Of a DNA stretch of 16,557 nucleotides, positions 191 to 6,541 are shown in pieces. Position numbers and translations under genes: made by a program. The notes beneath the pieces were generated by a model. That model did no database searches. It had not been told where the DNA came from and saw only the letters and a list, made by a program, of their open reading frames with translations. Each line of letters begins with the position of its first letter. Within the stretch, counting starts at the first letter, position 1. Source of the stretch: Nitrospinae bacterium RIFCSPLOWO2_12_FULL_45_22 (GTDB lineage: Bacteria > 2-12-FULL-45-22); the NCBI GenBank assembly GCA_001803565.1, contig MHDQ01000258.1, forward strand, positions 1 to 16,557, written 5' to 3'.

Positions 191-297
191 GGGTGTGGCT
201 ATTTTCTGTCACAAAAACCCGTAACTCAACCCTGGTTGACCAATTAGGGCTAAAGCCCTGAGTTACACCTACTTATGACAAAGAATAGCCACACCCT
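191..297. repeat. Cloverleaf-like palindromic repeat, copy 1
   Basis: Nested inverted repeats directly behind the permease stop codon. The outer arms are 191-210 and 278-297 (18 of 20 positions pair). The inner arms are GTAACTCA (221-228) and TGAGTTAC (259-266). Inside these are two hairpins, CAACC..GGTTG (about 228-238) and AGGGC-TAAA-GCCCT (246-259). The inner module occurs again at 3400-3449. The flanks ATTAATTT (183-190) and ATTGATTT (298-305) match at 7 of 8 positions and could be a decayed target duplication. It may act as a transcription barrier, but there is no T-tract for a classical terminator. The remaining stretch to 421 holds a 9-codon frame (380-406) with a purine-rich leader and nothing else recognised. 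Confidence 0.8.
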
Positions 298-421
298 ATT
301 GATTTCATTGAGGTTTGGCCATGTTGTTCAGTACCTTCCGTGGTAAAAATTAAGAAAAATGGGTAAAGGGGGGAAAGGAATGACCTTAAATACCAGGGAT
401 AAATGAAAAAAGGAGGGGATA

Positions 422-583
422 ATGAATAAAAAATCAGATAATAGCAAAAAAGATAGGAAGCACTATCATAAGCCTCAGCTAACCAGGATTAGATTGGTTA
501 TCGAGGAGGCAAGATGGGAAACCTGTAAACCTGCTCCTGATTGTGTAAGTCACGGACCAATAACGCGTAATCCTGGGTCTTAG
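422..583 (+). CDS. Putative RiPP precursor peptide (53 aa)
   Basis: A 53-residue frame with a strong ribosome binding site (AGGAGGGG, 411-418) just before ATG 422. The N-terminal part is very basic (MNKKSDNSKKDRK). It is followed by 'YHKPQL', like the Y-x-x-P-x-L leader motif that PqqD-type recognition proteins bind in lasso-peptide leaders, then 'RLVIEEARWE'. The C-terminal part is Pro/Gly/Cys-rich (TCKPAPDCVSHGPITRNPGS), with two cysteines (C35, C41) and a terminal Ser53. Size, leader/core layout and position directly before kinase, peptidase, PqqD and radical SAM genes fit a modified-peptide precursor. No leader-cleavage site such as a double glycine is evident. The stop codon TAG (581-583) is in frame with, and 6 bases before, the next gene's TTG. 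Precursor status is inferred from context; modification and final product are unknown. Confidence 0.65.
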   Translation: MNKKSDNSKKDRKHYHKPQLTRIRLVIEEARWETCKPAPDCVSHGPITRNPGS

Positions 584-589
584 CTAATA

Positions 590-1498
590 TTGAAGGAATT
601 AAAGCTAGAAATCGGTGGTATTACCATCCGGGTTGCCTCGGCTAAGAATCTGTATTTAAAGGTTGACCCGGCCCATGAGCTTTTCCTTGTTCAAGATACT
701 CAATGCGATTTTATCTTGCAGGTAAATTCCCCCCCTGCCCCTAATTGGCAATCAAAAGAAGTAATCTATCTTTCTAAAGGACTGTGGAGCCTCTATCGTA
801 TTGAAGGGAAATTCTTAATTATCCTTTGCTCTCCAGCGCCGGGTTCTTTTCCTTACCAGGCCGTTATATTCGATGAAGGCCTTAAAGACGGTGAATTATA
901 CATCCAACCAACAAATAATTATTCTGTCTTCGATTTACCACCCCCAACACTTACGACAACTCCCATATTGATTAACCCTTTTACCTATCCCCTGGAAGAG
1001 CTACTGATGGTTATGCTCCTCTCTAGGCGATCAGGATTAATCATCCATGCCTGCGGAATTAACTATAATGGCCGGGGAATACTGTTTGCCGGTACCTCCG
1101 GGGCAGGAAAGAGTACTCTGGCTAATATCTGTGGGGGAAAAGATATGTCATTACTCAGTGATGACCGGATCATCGTGCGCTCGATTGGGGATCGTTTCTG
1201 GATGTATGGCACTCCCTGGCACGGAGATGCCAGGGCTTGTTCACCCGAGAGGGTACCCCTGGAGAAGATATATTTGCTAAGGCATGACTATGAGAACCAG
1301 ATAGTCCCTTTGCCGATAATGGATGCAGCATCCAGGTTACTTGTATGTTCTTTCCCTCCATTTTATGAAAAGAGGGGCATGGAAGATACCTTAGACCTTT
1401 TGGAGCGCCTGGTCAAACATGTAGCCGTTTTTGAATTAAGATTTGTCCCGGATGATAGTGTTCTAGCATCAATTAAGGATCATTTAAAAAATGAATGA
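590..1498 (+). CDS. HPr kinase/phosphorylase-like protein of a peptide-modification locus
   Basis: This 302-residue protein has the C-terminal P-loop kinase fold of HPr kinases. The Walker A is GTSGAGKST (G168-T176), followed by 'LLSDDRIIVR' (D191/D192) and 'GTPWHGD' (207-213), a motif typical of HprK homologues in peptide gene clusters rather than the sugar-regulatory HprK. The N-terminal half (1-140) is a divergent domain without recognisable motifs. The start is uncertain: TTG 590 has no clear Shine-Dalgarno and lies 6 bases behind the peptide stop, so coupling is likely; no in-frame ATG occurs early. Its end overlaps the next gene by 8 bases. Known relatives in lasso-peptide clusters phosphorylate the precursor's C-terminal serine; here the peptide also ends in Ser, so the same role is an inference. 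Confidence 0.8.
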   Translation: MKELKLEIGGITIRVASAKNLYLKVDPAHELFLVQDTQCDFILQVNSPPAPNWQSKEVIYLSKGLWSLYRIEGKFLIILCSPAPGSFPYQAVIFDEGLKDGELYIQPTNNYSVFDLPPPTLTTTPILINPFTYPLEELLMVMLLSRRSGLIIHACGINYNGRGILFAGTSGAGKSTLANICGGKDMSLLSDDRIIVRSIGDRFWMYGTPWHGDARACSPERVPLEKIYLLRHDYENQIVPLPIMDAASRLLVCSFPPFYEKRGMEDTLDLLERLVKHVAVFELRFVPDDSVLASIKDHLKNE

Positions 1499-1964
1499 AT
1501 TAGTTAGACCTGGTCAGGATGGGGCTATTATGGAGTTGGTGAAAGAGCTTCTATTAAATGGAAAAATGATCCGTGCCCGCACCGAAGGGAAAAGTATGTA
1601 TCCCTGCATACGGGAAGGGGATTATGTTACTGTCAAACCTGTAAGGTATGAAGAAGCCAGGATAGGGGATATCCTGGCTTATGAGCGAGATCCGGGTATT
1701 CTCACGGCACACCGTCTACTCAGGAAAAATTCCTATCTCATCACCAAAGGTGATGCTAATATAAGCCCCTTTTATGATCCGCCTATATCTCCGGAAGCCC
1801 TCCTGGGTAAGATAATAAAGATTGAACGTGCTGGAAGGGTAATCCAGATGGAAAAGCCGATCTACCGGATAAAGGGATATATCATTGCTTATCTCCTTAT
1901 CTGCAGGGCAAAATATCTATATTATAAGGGATTAGGCATGTGGTTTAACAATCTGGTATTATAG
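1491..1964 (+). CDS. S24/S26-family signal-peptidase-like protein
   Basis: The 157-residue product carries the signal peptidase I core: 'EGKSMYPCIREGDYVTV', with the predicted nucleophile Ser35 in the G-x-S-M-x-P motif, then 'GDILAYERD', 'LTAHRLL' with His73, and 'LITKGDAN'. His73 stands where ER/SipW-type peptidases use histidine as the general base instead of lysine, so a Ser-His dyad is predicted. There is no N-terminal membrane anchor; the C-terminal third (about 125-157) is hydrophobic and tyrosine-rich and may associate with the membrane. It overlaps the kinase gene and is followed 9 bases later by the PqqD gene, so it is part of the operon. Such proteins recur in PqqD/HprK peptide clusters. 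Cleavage of the peptide leader is possible but not shown. A start at Met14 is an alternative. Confidence 0.8.
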   Translation: MNELVRPGQDGAIMELVKELLLNGKMIRARTEGKSMYPCIREGDYVTVKPVRYEEARIGDILAYERDPGILTAHRLLRKNSYLITKGDANISPFYDPPISPEALLGKIIKIERAGRVIQMEKPIYRIKGYIIAYLLICRAKYLYYKGLGMWFNNLVL

Positions 1965-1973
1965 AGGGAATAT

Positions 1974-2267
1974 ATGTGCTATTTGGAAAAATGTTACCAG
2001 AAGGATCCAAATATTGTCTTTCGTAGGATAGCGGATGAGGTTATACTGGTACCCATCCGGCAGGATGTGGCCGACATGGAATCTATCTATACCTTGAATG
2101 AAGTAGGCTCTTTTATCTGGGAAATCATCGAAAGTCAAAGGACTGTCGCACAGATAAAGGAATTGATCATAGCGGAATTTGAAGTGGACCCGGAAACAGC
2201 TGAGTTTGACCTAATAGAGTTTCTGGTGCAATTGGAAGCGGCAGGGGTGCTTGAGGAGCTTAAGTAA
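1974..2267 (+). CDS. PqqD-family peptide-binding protein (RiPP recognition element)
   Basis: A 97-residue small winged-helix protein. The signature runs 'NIVFRRIADEVILVPIRQ...IYTLNEVGSFIWEIIESQRTVAQIKELIIAEFEVDPETAEFDLIEFL', covering the PqqD domain from about residue 12 to 92, including the N-E-V/T-G-x-x-I-W segment. PqqD proteins bind the leader of a substrate peptide and present it to the modifying enzyme, often a radical SAM protein, which here is the next gene, 26 bases downstream. ATG 1974 is preceded by AGAGGGA (1963-1969). As a free-standing recognition protein it would be expected to bind the leader of the 53-residue peptide at 422-583. Confidence 0.9.
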   Translation: MCYLEKCYQKDPNIVFRRIADEVILVPIRQDVADMESIYTLNEVGSFIWEIIESQRTVAQIKELIIAEFEVDPETAEFDLIEFLVQLEAAGVLEELK

Positions 2268-2293
2268 AGGGTATTCACAGGAAAATTTGTCAT

Positions 2294-3373
2294 ATGGGGT
2301 GTTCTCATCTTCCCGAAATAAAATATGCTGAGTTTAGCAGGCACCTGCATAAAAAGTCCATAGCGGAACGGATACCCCTTCATGGGACGATAGAGCTGAC
2401 CTTTCGCTGCAATCTAAATTGTGTGCACTGTTATTGTCCCACACTTGGGCCACAAGATATAGAGAGAGAGCTCAATTATCAAGAGATTTGTCGGATCATA
2501 GATGATATGCTGGCCGAGGGTTGTCTCTGGTGGACAATCTCTGGTGGAGAGCCCCTGATCCGCGAAGATTTCCAGGACATTTATATTTATGCCAAGAAGA
2601 AGGGCTTATTAATAACACTGTTTACCAATGGGACCTTGATTACTACCCAGGTGGCCGATTTTCTGGATGAGTGGCCCCCATTTCTGGTGGAGATTACCCT
2701 ATATGGGATAACAAAAGAGGTCTATGAGTCTATTACTGGTATCCCGGGATCTTTTACGCAGTGCATGGAAGGGATCGAGCGTCTGCTGGCACGGAATATC
2801 CGCCTGAGATTGAAGACTGTGGTGCTGACCTTGAACCAACACCAGCTCTATGATATCAAAAGATATGTGGAAAGTTTGGGAGTAGGGTTCCGGTACGACC
2901 CAATGATTAACCCAGGCCTGGATGGATCCAGTAGACCCAAAAATTATAGGCTAACACCGGAAGAAGTAGTGAACCTGGATCTGGCTGATGAAAAACGTCT
3001 CCAAAACTGGAAAGAGGTAATGGAGAAGTATAGGGATAGTCCTAAAGATAATCATCTTTACACCTGCGTAGCGGGATTAGATTCTTTTCATATAAACCCC
3101 TATGGGGATATGCAGTTATGCATAATGGTCCAGAGGCCTGTTTACAGTCTTCGCCAGGGTTCTTTTAAAGAGGGTTGGCATAAATTCTTACCCAGGCTCC
3201 GGGCACAAAGGCCCAAAGGTGACTATAAATGCCCTGGTTGTGAGAGAAGCTCCCTCTGTCATCAATGTCCTGCCTGGGCCCAACTGGAGAACCATGACCC
3301 AGAAACACCAGTGGAGTACCTCTGTCAGATTGCCCACCTCAGGGCTGAGGTCTTTGGTAAAGATTCACGGTAA
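2294..3373 (+). CDS. Radical SAM/SPASM peptide-modifying enzyme
   Basis: The 359-residue protein has the radical SAM cluster motif C-x3-C-x2-C at C39, C43 and C46, and 'SGGEPL' for S-adenosylmethionine binding. Its C-terminal SPASM domain binds auxiliary Fe-S clusters: C258-x12-G271-x4-C276, then C313-x2-C316-x5-C322-x2-C325, then C344. That layout is typical of maturases that modify ribosomal peptides (PqqE, anSME and sactipeptide/thioether families) by radical chemistry in the reducing cytoplasm. It closes the operon with the PqqD-like gene just upstream. The extreme C-terminus has been altered: a structured repeat inside a 14-bp direct duplication follows codon Asp357, adding Ser-Arg before a new stop. 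The apparent original stop is at 3495-3497. The substrate is presumably the 53-residue peptide. Confidence 0.9.
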   Translation: MGCSHLPEIKYAEFSRHLHKKSIAERIPLHGTIELTFRCNLNCVHCYCPTLGPQDIERELNYQEICRIIDDMLAEGCLWWTISGGEPLIREDFQDIYIYAKKKGLLITLFTNGTLITTQVADFLDEWPPFLVEITLYGITKEVYESITGIPGSFTQCMEGIERLLARNIRLRLKTVVLTLNQHQLYDIKRYVESLGVGFRYDPMINPGLDGSSRPKNYRLTPEEVVNLDLADEKRLQNWKEVMEKYRDSPKDNHLYTCVAGLDSFHINPYGDMQLCIMVQRPVYSLRQGSFKEGWHKFLPRLRAQRPKGDYKCPGCERSSLCHQCPAWAQLENHDPETPVEYLCQIAHLRAEVFGKDSR

Positions 3374-3495
3374 CGTCAAAGTGATCCTGAGCAGCCCCTG
3401 TAACTCAACCCTTCAGGGTTGATCTGTCAAGGCTAAAGCCTTGAGTTACTCAATCGCTTTCTAAGATGACTTTGACGTGGCCTTTGGTAAAGATT
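3352..3495. repeat. Cloverleaf-like palindromic element, copy 2, inside a 14-bp direct duplication
   Basis: Direct repeats CTTTGGTAAAGATT at 3352-3365 and 3482-3495 bracket a 116-bp palindromic insert. The outer arms are ACGTCAAAGT (3373-3382) and ACTTTGACGT (3469-3478). Inside lie GTAACTCA (3400-3407) and TGAGTTAC (3442-3449), as in the copy at 191-297, enclosing hairpins CAACCCT-TC-AGGGTTG (3406-3421) and CAAGGC-TAAA-GCCTTG (3428-3443). It looks like a small non-coding mobile element that duplicated its target on insertion. No transposase is encoded. Confidence 0.8.
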
Positions 3496-5707: not shown

Positions 5708-6060
5708 TCAGAGGCCTGTATCCTTAATATGCCCCTGGATCAGAACGCTCCAGGGTCCCTGCTTCAATGGGACATAGTTAATACCGTTAGAGCTTTCTTC
5801 AAACTATCCCCTTTCTTTTCCCGAAAATCTATAACTCCCTGTATCACAGTCCTGATGAGCACACCATTTTGTAATTGACCTTCCTTACCTTCCCTTTTGA
5901 TAAATACCAGCCTTTGTAGAGATACCAAAATTACTATCCATCTCCGGTTGCAGGTTCTCTCTATTGGCGGTAATCTGATTTGCCTGTCCATCTTTTACCA
6001 GCCACACCTGTATCCTGGGGTCCGGGGATGTTTTGGGGGCAGCAGGAACATCGCAGCGGA
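5708..6060 (-). pseudogene. Possible decayed reading frame, unidentified
   Basis: Read on the minus strand from about 6060, one frame gives protein-like text ('VPAAPKTSPDPRIQVWLVKD', then 'GISTKAGIYQKGR') up to TAA at 5885-5887. The same frame continues beyond that stop with 'WCAHQDCDTGSYRFSGKE', a further TAG, then 'INYVPLKQGPWSVLIQGH' and a final TGA at 5708-5710. There is no start codon with a ribosome site, and the upstream end abuts the transposase remnant. This could be a dead gene cut by an insertion, or chance. No family is recognised. Confidence 0.22.
5733..5755. repeat. Short inverted repeat after the GGDEF-like gene
   Basis: CCCTGGA (5733-5739) and TCCAGGG (5749-5755) form a perfect 7-bp stem with a 9-base loop, 80 bases behind the end of the + strand operon. 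There is no T-tract, so it may be a weak or Rho-linked terminator or simply part of the decayed intergenic DNA. Confidence 0.3.
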
Positions 6061-6078
6061 TTTGGCGGCTCTATTTTA

Positions 6079-6252
6079 AGGATTACCTGTCCACGCTGTG
6101 GTCATCAAAAATGCTGGAATATGCGCAGTGGACTCTACCGATGCAGCCGATCTAAGTATCATCTTTCTGTTACCGCTGGCACGATATTTCAAGATAGTCG
6201 AATCCCTCTGCGATTGTGGTTTCGGGCTATATGGCAAGTGGTCAGCCAGAAG
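6079..6252 (+). pseudogene. IS1595-family transposase remnant (N-terminal zinc ribbon)
   Basis: The translated stretch 'CPRCGHQKCWNMRSGLYRC' followed by 'HLSVTAGTIFQDSRIPLRLW' and 'IWQVVSQK' matches the N-terminal zinc-ribbon and linker of IS1595-type transposases, which normally continue into an ISXO2-like DDE domain of some 200 residues. Here similarity ends at 'SQK' (about 6252) and the frame runs out at 6351 without the catalytic domain. The second Cys pair is damaged ('RCSRS' instead of C-x2-C), and there is no recognisable start. It is a dead fragment. No terminal inverted repeats were found. It marks past mobile-element activity next to the tRNA genes. Confidence 0.7.
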
Positions 6253-6541
6253 CTTATCAAAAATGTAAGCATCCCTAGGCTTACCACATTTACCCTTCCT
6301 GACGTGAATACGGCTCTGCCCATACTTTATATAAATATCTGCAATCCTTAGATCGGACTAGGAGCTACCCCTAATGTGATTTTATAGAAGAATTTGAAAT
6401 AGAGTGACTTAATAAAGTATTTTTATGGTCAGAAAGTGGTTGCACATAGGTTGCATTTTTGCTATTATTTTGTTGGTAATTGATAAGATTTAGTATTTGT
6501 TAACCCTTGAAAATACTGATATACCAGCTTTCGGGAACAGA

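Follow-up and report, generated by a model that had tools for sequence, protein, structure and literature searches.

Which product is made by an operon that combines a small peptide with a HprK-like kinase, an S26-type peptidase, a PqqD protein and a radical S-adenosylmethionine (SAM)/SPASM enzyme? The question is raised by the window analysed here, the 16,557-nucleotide contig MHDQ01000258.1 (C258 in our numbering) of Nitrospinae bacterium RIFCSPLOWO2_12_FULL_45_22 (assembly GCA_001803565.1), a draft genome of 3.67 Mb in 321 contigs which is 85% complete. The operon occupies positions 422 to 3373 of the plus strand. A preliminary description of this DNA had read it as a compact locus for a ribosomally synthesised and post-translationally modified peptide (RiPP), and all five consecutive genes were found where it had placed them, overlapping or less than 30 bp apart.

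With a probability of about 0.7, the cassette is a RiPP pathway in which the Cys-containing core of the peptide would be modified by the radical SAM enzyme and its C-terminal Ser phosphorylated by the kinase, giving a so far predicted product. This reading is based on the conservation of the cassette across phyla, the rigid plan of the precursors, the association of the kinase motif with the last residue of the precursor, and the intact catalytic residues. Two points go beyond the preliminary description. Kinase and peptide are connected by a rule on the C-terminal Ser, and the cassette occurs widely, more than once even within its own genome.

The precursor peptides

About 125 related loci, mostly from metagenome-assembled genomes, were examined. 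They yielded 125 precursors, that of the window included, which have what characterizes a RiPP: an encoded peptide with a conserved leader motif and a variable core, located beside a maturase. The homologous loci therefore support the earlier interpretation of the YxxPxL leader together with PqqD protein, kinase, peptidase and radical SAM/SPASM enzyme. A conserved small peptide at the head of the operon had also been expected. The peptide is indeed conserved in leader motif and core plan, but mostly it does not come first; in most loci it is encoded in the gap between the radical SAM and the kinase gene, with a length of mostly 50-70 residues.

The consensus reads K-x-Y-x-K-P-x-[ILV]-x-x-V-x-L-x-x-E-E-A-V-L-x-G-C-K ... 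C ... C ... G-S. The Tyr (replaced by Trp in eight cases) and the first core Cys are exactly 20 residues apart in 115 of the 125 loci. Exactly three core Cys are present in 102 precursors, and the first core Cys is followed by Lys in 97. A penultimate Gly is common as well, with 69 cases. None of the precursors, including the window peptide, was matched by a Pfam or NCBIfam model. Some loci (L049, L050, L126, L225) contain two precursors. In three Nitrospirae cassettes (L049, 8096-8465; L050, 8085-8462; L046, 5742-6074) a tandem pair is found which carries W-x-x-P for Y-x-x-P and of which both members end in Ser.

The window peptide agrees with the others in its leader, a Tyr-Cys spacing of 20, the CK pair and the terminal Gly-Ser. 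It is atypical in having two Cys, the third one lacking, and in the replacement of EEAVLxGCK by EEARWETCK. The ribosome site ahead of it, described as strong before, could be confirmed (Table 1; the start reads aaaaaaGGAGGGgata-ATG).

The kinase and the terminal residue

According to its AlphaFold2 model (predicted local distance difference test, pLDDT, 90.4), the HprK-like protein has the PEPCK/HprK P-loop kinase fold. The best folds in the PDB are PEPCKs (Z 13.3, 241 residues aligned, 5.2 Å), which were the only enzymes among the matches listed, while HprK itself surfaced by sequence. The scores against the HprK families are weak and the matches lie mostly over the P-loop region: HprK_rel_B reaches 43.5 bits against a cut-off of 200, and the HPr kinase/phosphorylase family TIGR00679 23.6 bits against 240, with residues 151-201 alone aligned. 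The motifs H153, GTSGAGKS (168-175), D191-D192-R193 and GTPWHG (207-212) are formed by residues which are invariant or more than 90% conserved in 25 aligned proteins. This includes the His-Lys-Asp-Asp set, with H153, K174 and D191 invariant and D192 above 90%. The same set is essential in the lasso peptide kinases PadeK, ThcoK and PsmK, for which the site of phosphorylation is the Ser at the C-terminus of the precursor (PMC9266682). By analogy with them we infer that the HprK-like protein is the kinase of the precursor's C-terminal Ser; the window precursor ends in NPGS, Ser-ended as in the PadeK/ThcoK group.

Both parts, kinase and precursor, were in view in 118 loci. Wherever positions 191-192 of the kinase are DD or DE, the precursor ends in a hydroxyl residue (110 of 110; Ser in 100, Thr in nine, Tyr in one). 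Mapped on the radical SAM tree, the non-Ser ends must have arisen at least ten times independently, always by a change to a hydroxyl residue. As a background, a terminal Ser is present in 14 of 252 other proteins encoded in these loci (5.6%). The kinases of one Chloroflexota clade have ED at the Asp pair, and the Arg which follows is replaced by Gln or Thr. None of the eight precursors of that clade ends in Ser and one ends in Thr (the ends are Y, P, G, Q, H, M, T, P). More than 110 matched pairs of kinase and precursor give a rule on one residue, a hydroxyl C-terminus where the kinase is of DD or DE type, for which the ED kinases are natural variants and built-in controls.

Apart from these, the paralogous Chloroflexota loci L119, L120, L122 and L123 encode a kinase-like protein with GTWSHG for GTPWHG, inside much longer open reading frames (ORFs).

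The radical SAM enzyme, the PqqD protein and the peptidase

The radical SAM motif C39xxxC43xxC46 and seven SPASM Cys (258, 276, 313, 316, 322, 325, 344) are invariant in 27 aligned proteins. The SPASM domain is weakly matched in Pfam (16.3 bits against a cut-off of 21.5), all seven Cys being present nonetheless. The AlphaFold2 model (pLDDT 91.5) comes closest to SuiB (Z 24.9, 298 residues, 3.3 Å), followed by SkfB (Z 23.5, 274 residues, 3.5 Å) and anSME (Z 23.3, 312 residues, 3.9 Å). The protein is too short for a fused recognition domain as found in SuiB or SkfB. That role is presumably filled by the free PqqD protein, by analogy with PadeB1, which binds the paeninodin leader at nanomolar affinity (PMC5067487). 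The conserved core Cys would be compatible with a Cys thioether of the sactipeptide or ranthipeptide type.

The S24/S26 ORF passes the Pfam S24 cut-off and obtains 47.8 bits against 51.85 for archaeal-type signal peptidase I. In 36 loci its GxSMxP, HR and GD motifs are invariant or near-invariant and Ser, His and Asp (S35, H74, D88) are kept. The motifs suggest that it is likely the leader protease, or else an export protease.

Distribution and gene order

Related loci were found in Acidobacteriota, Omnitrophota, Nitrospirota, Chloroflexota, Verrucomicrobiota, Desulfo-lineages and others. When 84,980 species were scanned, each represented by one genome, the matches listed included about 48 close loci, which belong to many phyla. 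In samples of single phyla, radical SAM matches at E of 1e-80 or below, counts which take in some paralogues without a kinase, were obtained in 47 of 285 genomes (phylum of the Omnitrophota locus), 44 of 295 (Nitrospirae), 41 of 347 (Aminicenantes), 14 of 301 (Brevefilum/Chloroflexota) and 12 of 240 (Verrucomicrobia).

According to profile searches the usual order, kept in most loci, is PqqD, radical SAM, precursor, kinase, peptidase and nucleotidyltransferase. The PqqD orthologue adjoins the radical SAM gene in most loci, and several have an ABC-2 exporter pair 3' of the cassette. The window order is rearranged and, unlike many sister cassettes, the window contains no nucleotidyltransferase. 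That the operon consists of unrelated ORFs assembled by chance was rejected, because dozens of unrelated genomes show its components again in order, together with a precursor of like plan.

Two more cassettes are encoded by the same genome. The one on contig C54 comprises PqqD, radical SAM, precursor, kinase, S26 and nucleotidyltransferase (PF14907) genes; its radical SAM paralogue is 57% identical to that of the window, and it adjoins WecA-like, DegT and PIG-L/sugar genes. The third, on contig C138, is more distant.

Some lineages show variants. One group within the phylum of the Nitrospirae locus (L188-L196) has DE-type kinases, long precursors which end in RPS or RAS and contain extra Cys and, in many of its genomes, two adjacent radical SAM genes. 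A Desantisbacteria cassette (L021, 6233-7360 and 9523-10674) contains an extra radical SAM-like protein and a PRMT-like methyltransferase between kinase and S26.

The proposed pathway

By binding the leader at Y-x-x-P-x-[ILV], the PqqD protein would present the peptide to the enzymes which act on it. The Cys core would be modified by the radical SAM/SPASM enzyme, most likely through a cross-link, be it a thioether or one of another kind, which involves the Cys at Tyr+20 and/or its partners, and the HprK-like protein would phosphorylate the hydroxyl of the last Ser (Thr in some copies). In the many sister cassettes with a PF14907 nucleotidyltransferase the phosphate may be elaborated, as by PsmN for pseudomycoidin. 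The leader would most likely be removed by the S26-type peptidase, after which some loci encode an ABC-2 exporter.

Several points weigh against this pathway. BsfK, a distant lasso kinase, phosphorylates Ser3, aided by a PqqD-type B1 protein (PMC10368454); the kinase fold alone therefore does not fix the site of phosphorylation. The kinase motif changed to ED only once on the radical SAM tree, and because this change maps to one branch the ED contrast counts as one natural experiment and not as eight; a Fisher p-value for its coincidence with the loss of the terminal Ser is therefore no test on independent samples. Since the first precursors served to train the profile by which the later ones were found, similar tails may have been favoured. 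In a minority of the cassette loci (e.g. L022, L056, L058, L157, L192) no precursor was found; at L022 the upstream S8 subtilase carries no precursor-like tail either. Thioether chemistry is deduced from the conserved Cys and the class of the enzyme, and without the third Cys the cross-link pattern of the window peptide may differ or be lost.

Alternative explanations

The peptide could be located at the surface or linked to exopolysaccharide, with its phospho-Ser serving as a handle to which a sugar or polymer is attached via the nucleotidyltransferase and neighbouring polysaccharide genes. This would extend the pathway proposed above and not oppose it. Wzz-like proteins are encoded in 11 and Wza-like proteins in nine of the 34 cassette loci longer than 10 kb, compared to none of 16 control radical SAM loci, a control set which is small, comes from other lineages and is not matched by phylum. 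The sugar genes beside the C54 copy fit as well, and PsmN is known to add hexoses to phospho-Ser (PMC9266682, a review). However, two thirds of the loci are without polysaccharide genes, and so is the window; as a general explanation the surface link seems rather unlikely. C25 (gingipain-type) or S8 peptidases adjoin other cassette loci. The polysaccharide and peptidase neighbours hint at a role at the cell surface.

Instead of a Ser kinase, the HprK-like protein could be a P-loop enzyme of another kind, such as a regulator or an enzyme which activates the terminal carboxylate at the expense of ATP; the Ser would then be kept for a different reason, for instance recognition by an exporter or protease. 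Enzymes of the PEPCK fold are catalytically diverse, the scores against known HprK models stay far under the cut-offs, and the common penultimate Gly could mark a processing signal. Such an enzyme is nevertheless improbable: the last residue tolerates Thr and Tyr but never a non-hydroxyl residue beside DD/DE kinases, the residues of the proven lasso kinases are intact, and the terminal Ser is lost in the very clade with an altered Asp pair.

It is also unlikely that the cassette on contig C54 is the functional one and that of the window a duplicate which is in decay or has an accessory role. The window peptide without a third Cys and with a deviating EEARWETCK segment, the missing nucleotidyltransferase, and palindromic repeats which flank the cassette and also lie right at the 3' end of its radical SAM gene would suit decay. 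Against this, the five ORFs are intact with every catalytic residue present, leader spacing and terminal Gly-Ser are kept, and the ribosome site is strong.

A product of the kind of pyrroloquinoline quinone (PQQ) or mycofactocin, a small molecule or cofactor for which just a few residues of the core are retained, is very unlikely: in their profile scores the radical SAM and PqqD proteins are similar to PqqE/PqqD and the mycofactocin maturase, and the cassette occurs in many phyla, but no dehydrogenase or PqqC-like partner is found among the recurrent neighbours, the core varies in length and sequence while Cys and terminal Ser are constant, and four loci hold two precursors.

Features of the window and flanking repeats

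Table 1. Features of the operon and its surroundings (positions refer to the window)
Feature	Position	Strand	Remarks
Precursor ribosome-binding site	411..416	+	GGAGGG; sequence read directly
RiPP precursor peptide, 53 residues	422..583	+	Y15-H-K-P-Q-L leader; core C35 (Tyr+20), C41; C-terminal ...RNPGS
HprK-like P-loop kinase (PEPCK/HprK fold), 302 residues	590..1498	+	TTG start; weak family matches, motifs, AlphaFold2 fold
S24/S26 ORF, S26B-like (archaeal/ER signal peptidase I type)	1491..1964	+	Pfam S24; S35/H74/D88
PqqD-family protein, stand-alone (RiPP recognition element)	1974..2267	+	PF05402, 61.8 bits
Radical SAM/SPASM peptide maturase	2294..3373	+	69.4 bits; all cluster Cys; AlphaFold2 model
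Palindromic repeat, 5' copy	218..266
Palindromic repeat, 3' copy	3397..3449
Stretch with direct repeats	3349..3495		overlaps last codons of radical SAM gene
Probable transposase fragment	5980..6351		sub-threshold IS1595-type zinc-ribbon match

The cassette is flanked by two copies of a palindromic repeat (GTAACTCAACCCT...GGCTAAAGCCYTGAGTTAC) of which the genome contains 24, compared to none for the reversed control pattern. The 3' copy lies inside a stretch of 113 bp with near-identical direct repeats of 17 bp on either side (GGTCTTTGGTAAAGATT / GGCCTTTGGTAAAGATT), an arrangement which looks like a small element inserted with target duplication. On contig C138 two inverted copies (3642, 4873) surround the HprK-like gene. 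A sigma-54 regulator and a GGDEF protein are encoded 3' of the window operon; there is no sign of either belonging to it.

Comparison with known systems

A search of the open-access literature, in itself weak evidence of novelty, gave no description of the cassette; a paper found there on radical SAM, HPr kinase and RiPPs mentions HPr kinase in lasso clusters only. Several described systems share parts of it. GeoRSP, like SynChlorMet a system defined in NCBIfam, also combines a PqqD family protein with radical SAM/SPASM enzymes, and was rejected on profile scores (PqqD 23.9 bits against a cut-off of 100, radical SAM 71.2 against 400). The sactipeptide and ranthipeptide maturases SuiB, SkfB and CteB as well as PqqE are like the radical SAM protein in fold, cluster Cys and a likely leader-bearing substrate. 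Here, in contrast, the recognition domain is a separate PqqD protein, a kinase and an S26 protein are associated, and no NCBIfam cut-off is reached by the kinase, the PqqD or the radical SAM protein of the window.

Among the described sets SynChlorMet comes nearest in gene content, since HprK-like (ScmC), PqqD (ScmD) and radical SAM/SPASM proteins (ScmE/ScmF) occur in one cassette, but its radical SAM enzymes are two distinct proteins. The window proteins score 24.7 of 125 bits for ScmC, 35.1 of 100 for ScmD, and 77 and 67.1 of 400 for ScmE and ScmF, against both of which the single radical SAM protein was scored; SynChlorMet was therefore rejected. The cassette described here is indeed distinct, because in one Nitrospirae genome (L051, 9294-13572) a true SynChlorMet cassette passes all four cut-offs and lies directly downstream of a cassette of the new type. 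The candidate precursor of that SynChlorMet cassette has Gly/Cys repeats and ends in GGRD, not in Ser.

By logic, the lasso peptide clusters are nearest. The preliminary description had compared kinase, signal-peptidase-like protein and free PqqD domain with the accessory set of such clusters. The parallel is apt for the kinase and the PqqD protein, and it extends to the nucleotidyltransferase of other copies (PMC9266682, PMC10368454). No report of S26 peptidases among the accessory proteins of lasso clusters was found in the literature searched. The kinase-bearing clusters of paeninodin (pade), ThcoA/K, SyanA/K, pseudomycoidin (psm) and bsf have a HprK-like kinase with His-Lys-Asp-Asp. A YxxPxL leader with a stand-alone PqqD-family B1 protein is known from bsf, a precursor with C-terminal Ser from the paeninodin type, and a nucleotidyltransferase beside the kinase from psm and bsf (PMC9266682, PMC10368454, PMC5067487). 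As previously noted, the lasso protease and cyclase are missing. No B2 leader peptidase (Transglut_core3) is encoded in the window, and the genome, at its 85% completeness, gave one match below the cut-off on another contig; no ORF for the asparagine-synthetase-like cyclase C was found in the cassette or among its recurrent neighbours. A degenerate lasso cluster was rejected, as the defining lasso enzymes are absent. B2 and C are replaced by the radical SAM/SPASM maturase and the S26-type peptidase, and the core has conserved Cys.

If the proposed pathway is right, phosphorylation of the C-terminal Ser is a modular RiPP tailoring step, independent of the lasso fold, and uncultured phyla contain a large and widely spread peptide family for which no description is given in Pfam, in NCBIfam or in the literature searched. 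Tentatively, and with more doubt than confidence, one may go further and see in it a RiPP class spanning phyla, whose peptide would be cross-linked by the radical SAM enzyme, phosphorylated at the C-terminal Ser, capped with a sugar or nucleotide where a nucleotidyltransferase is present, and possibly coupled to exopolysaccharide or the cell surface: the kinase logic of lasso peptides on a scaffold which is not a lasso. The cassette itself is real but unnamed, a radical SAM RiPP with tailoring of the lasso type.

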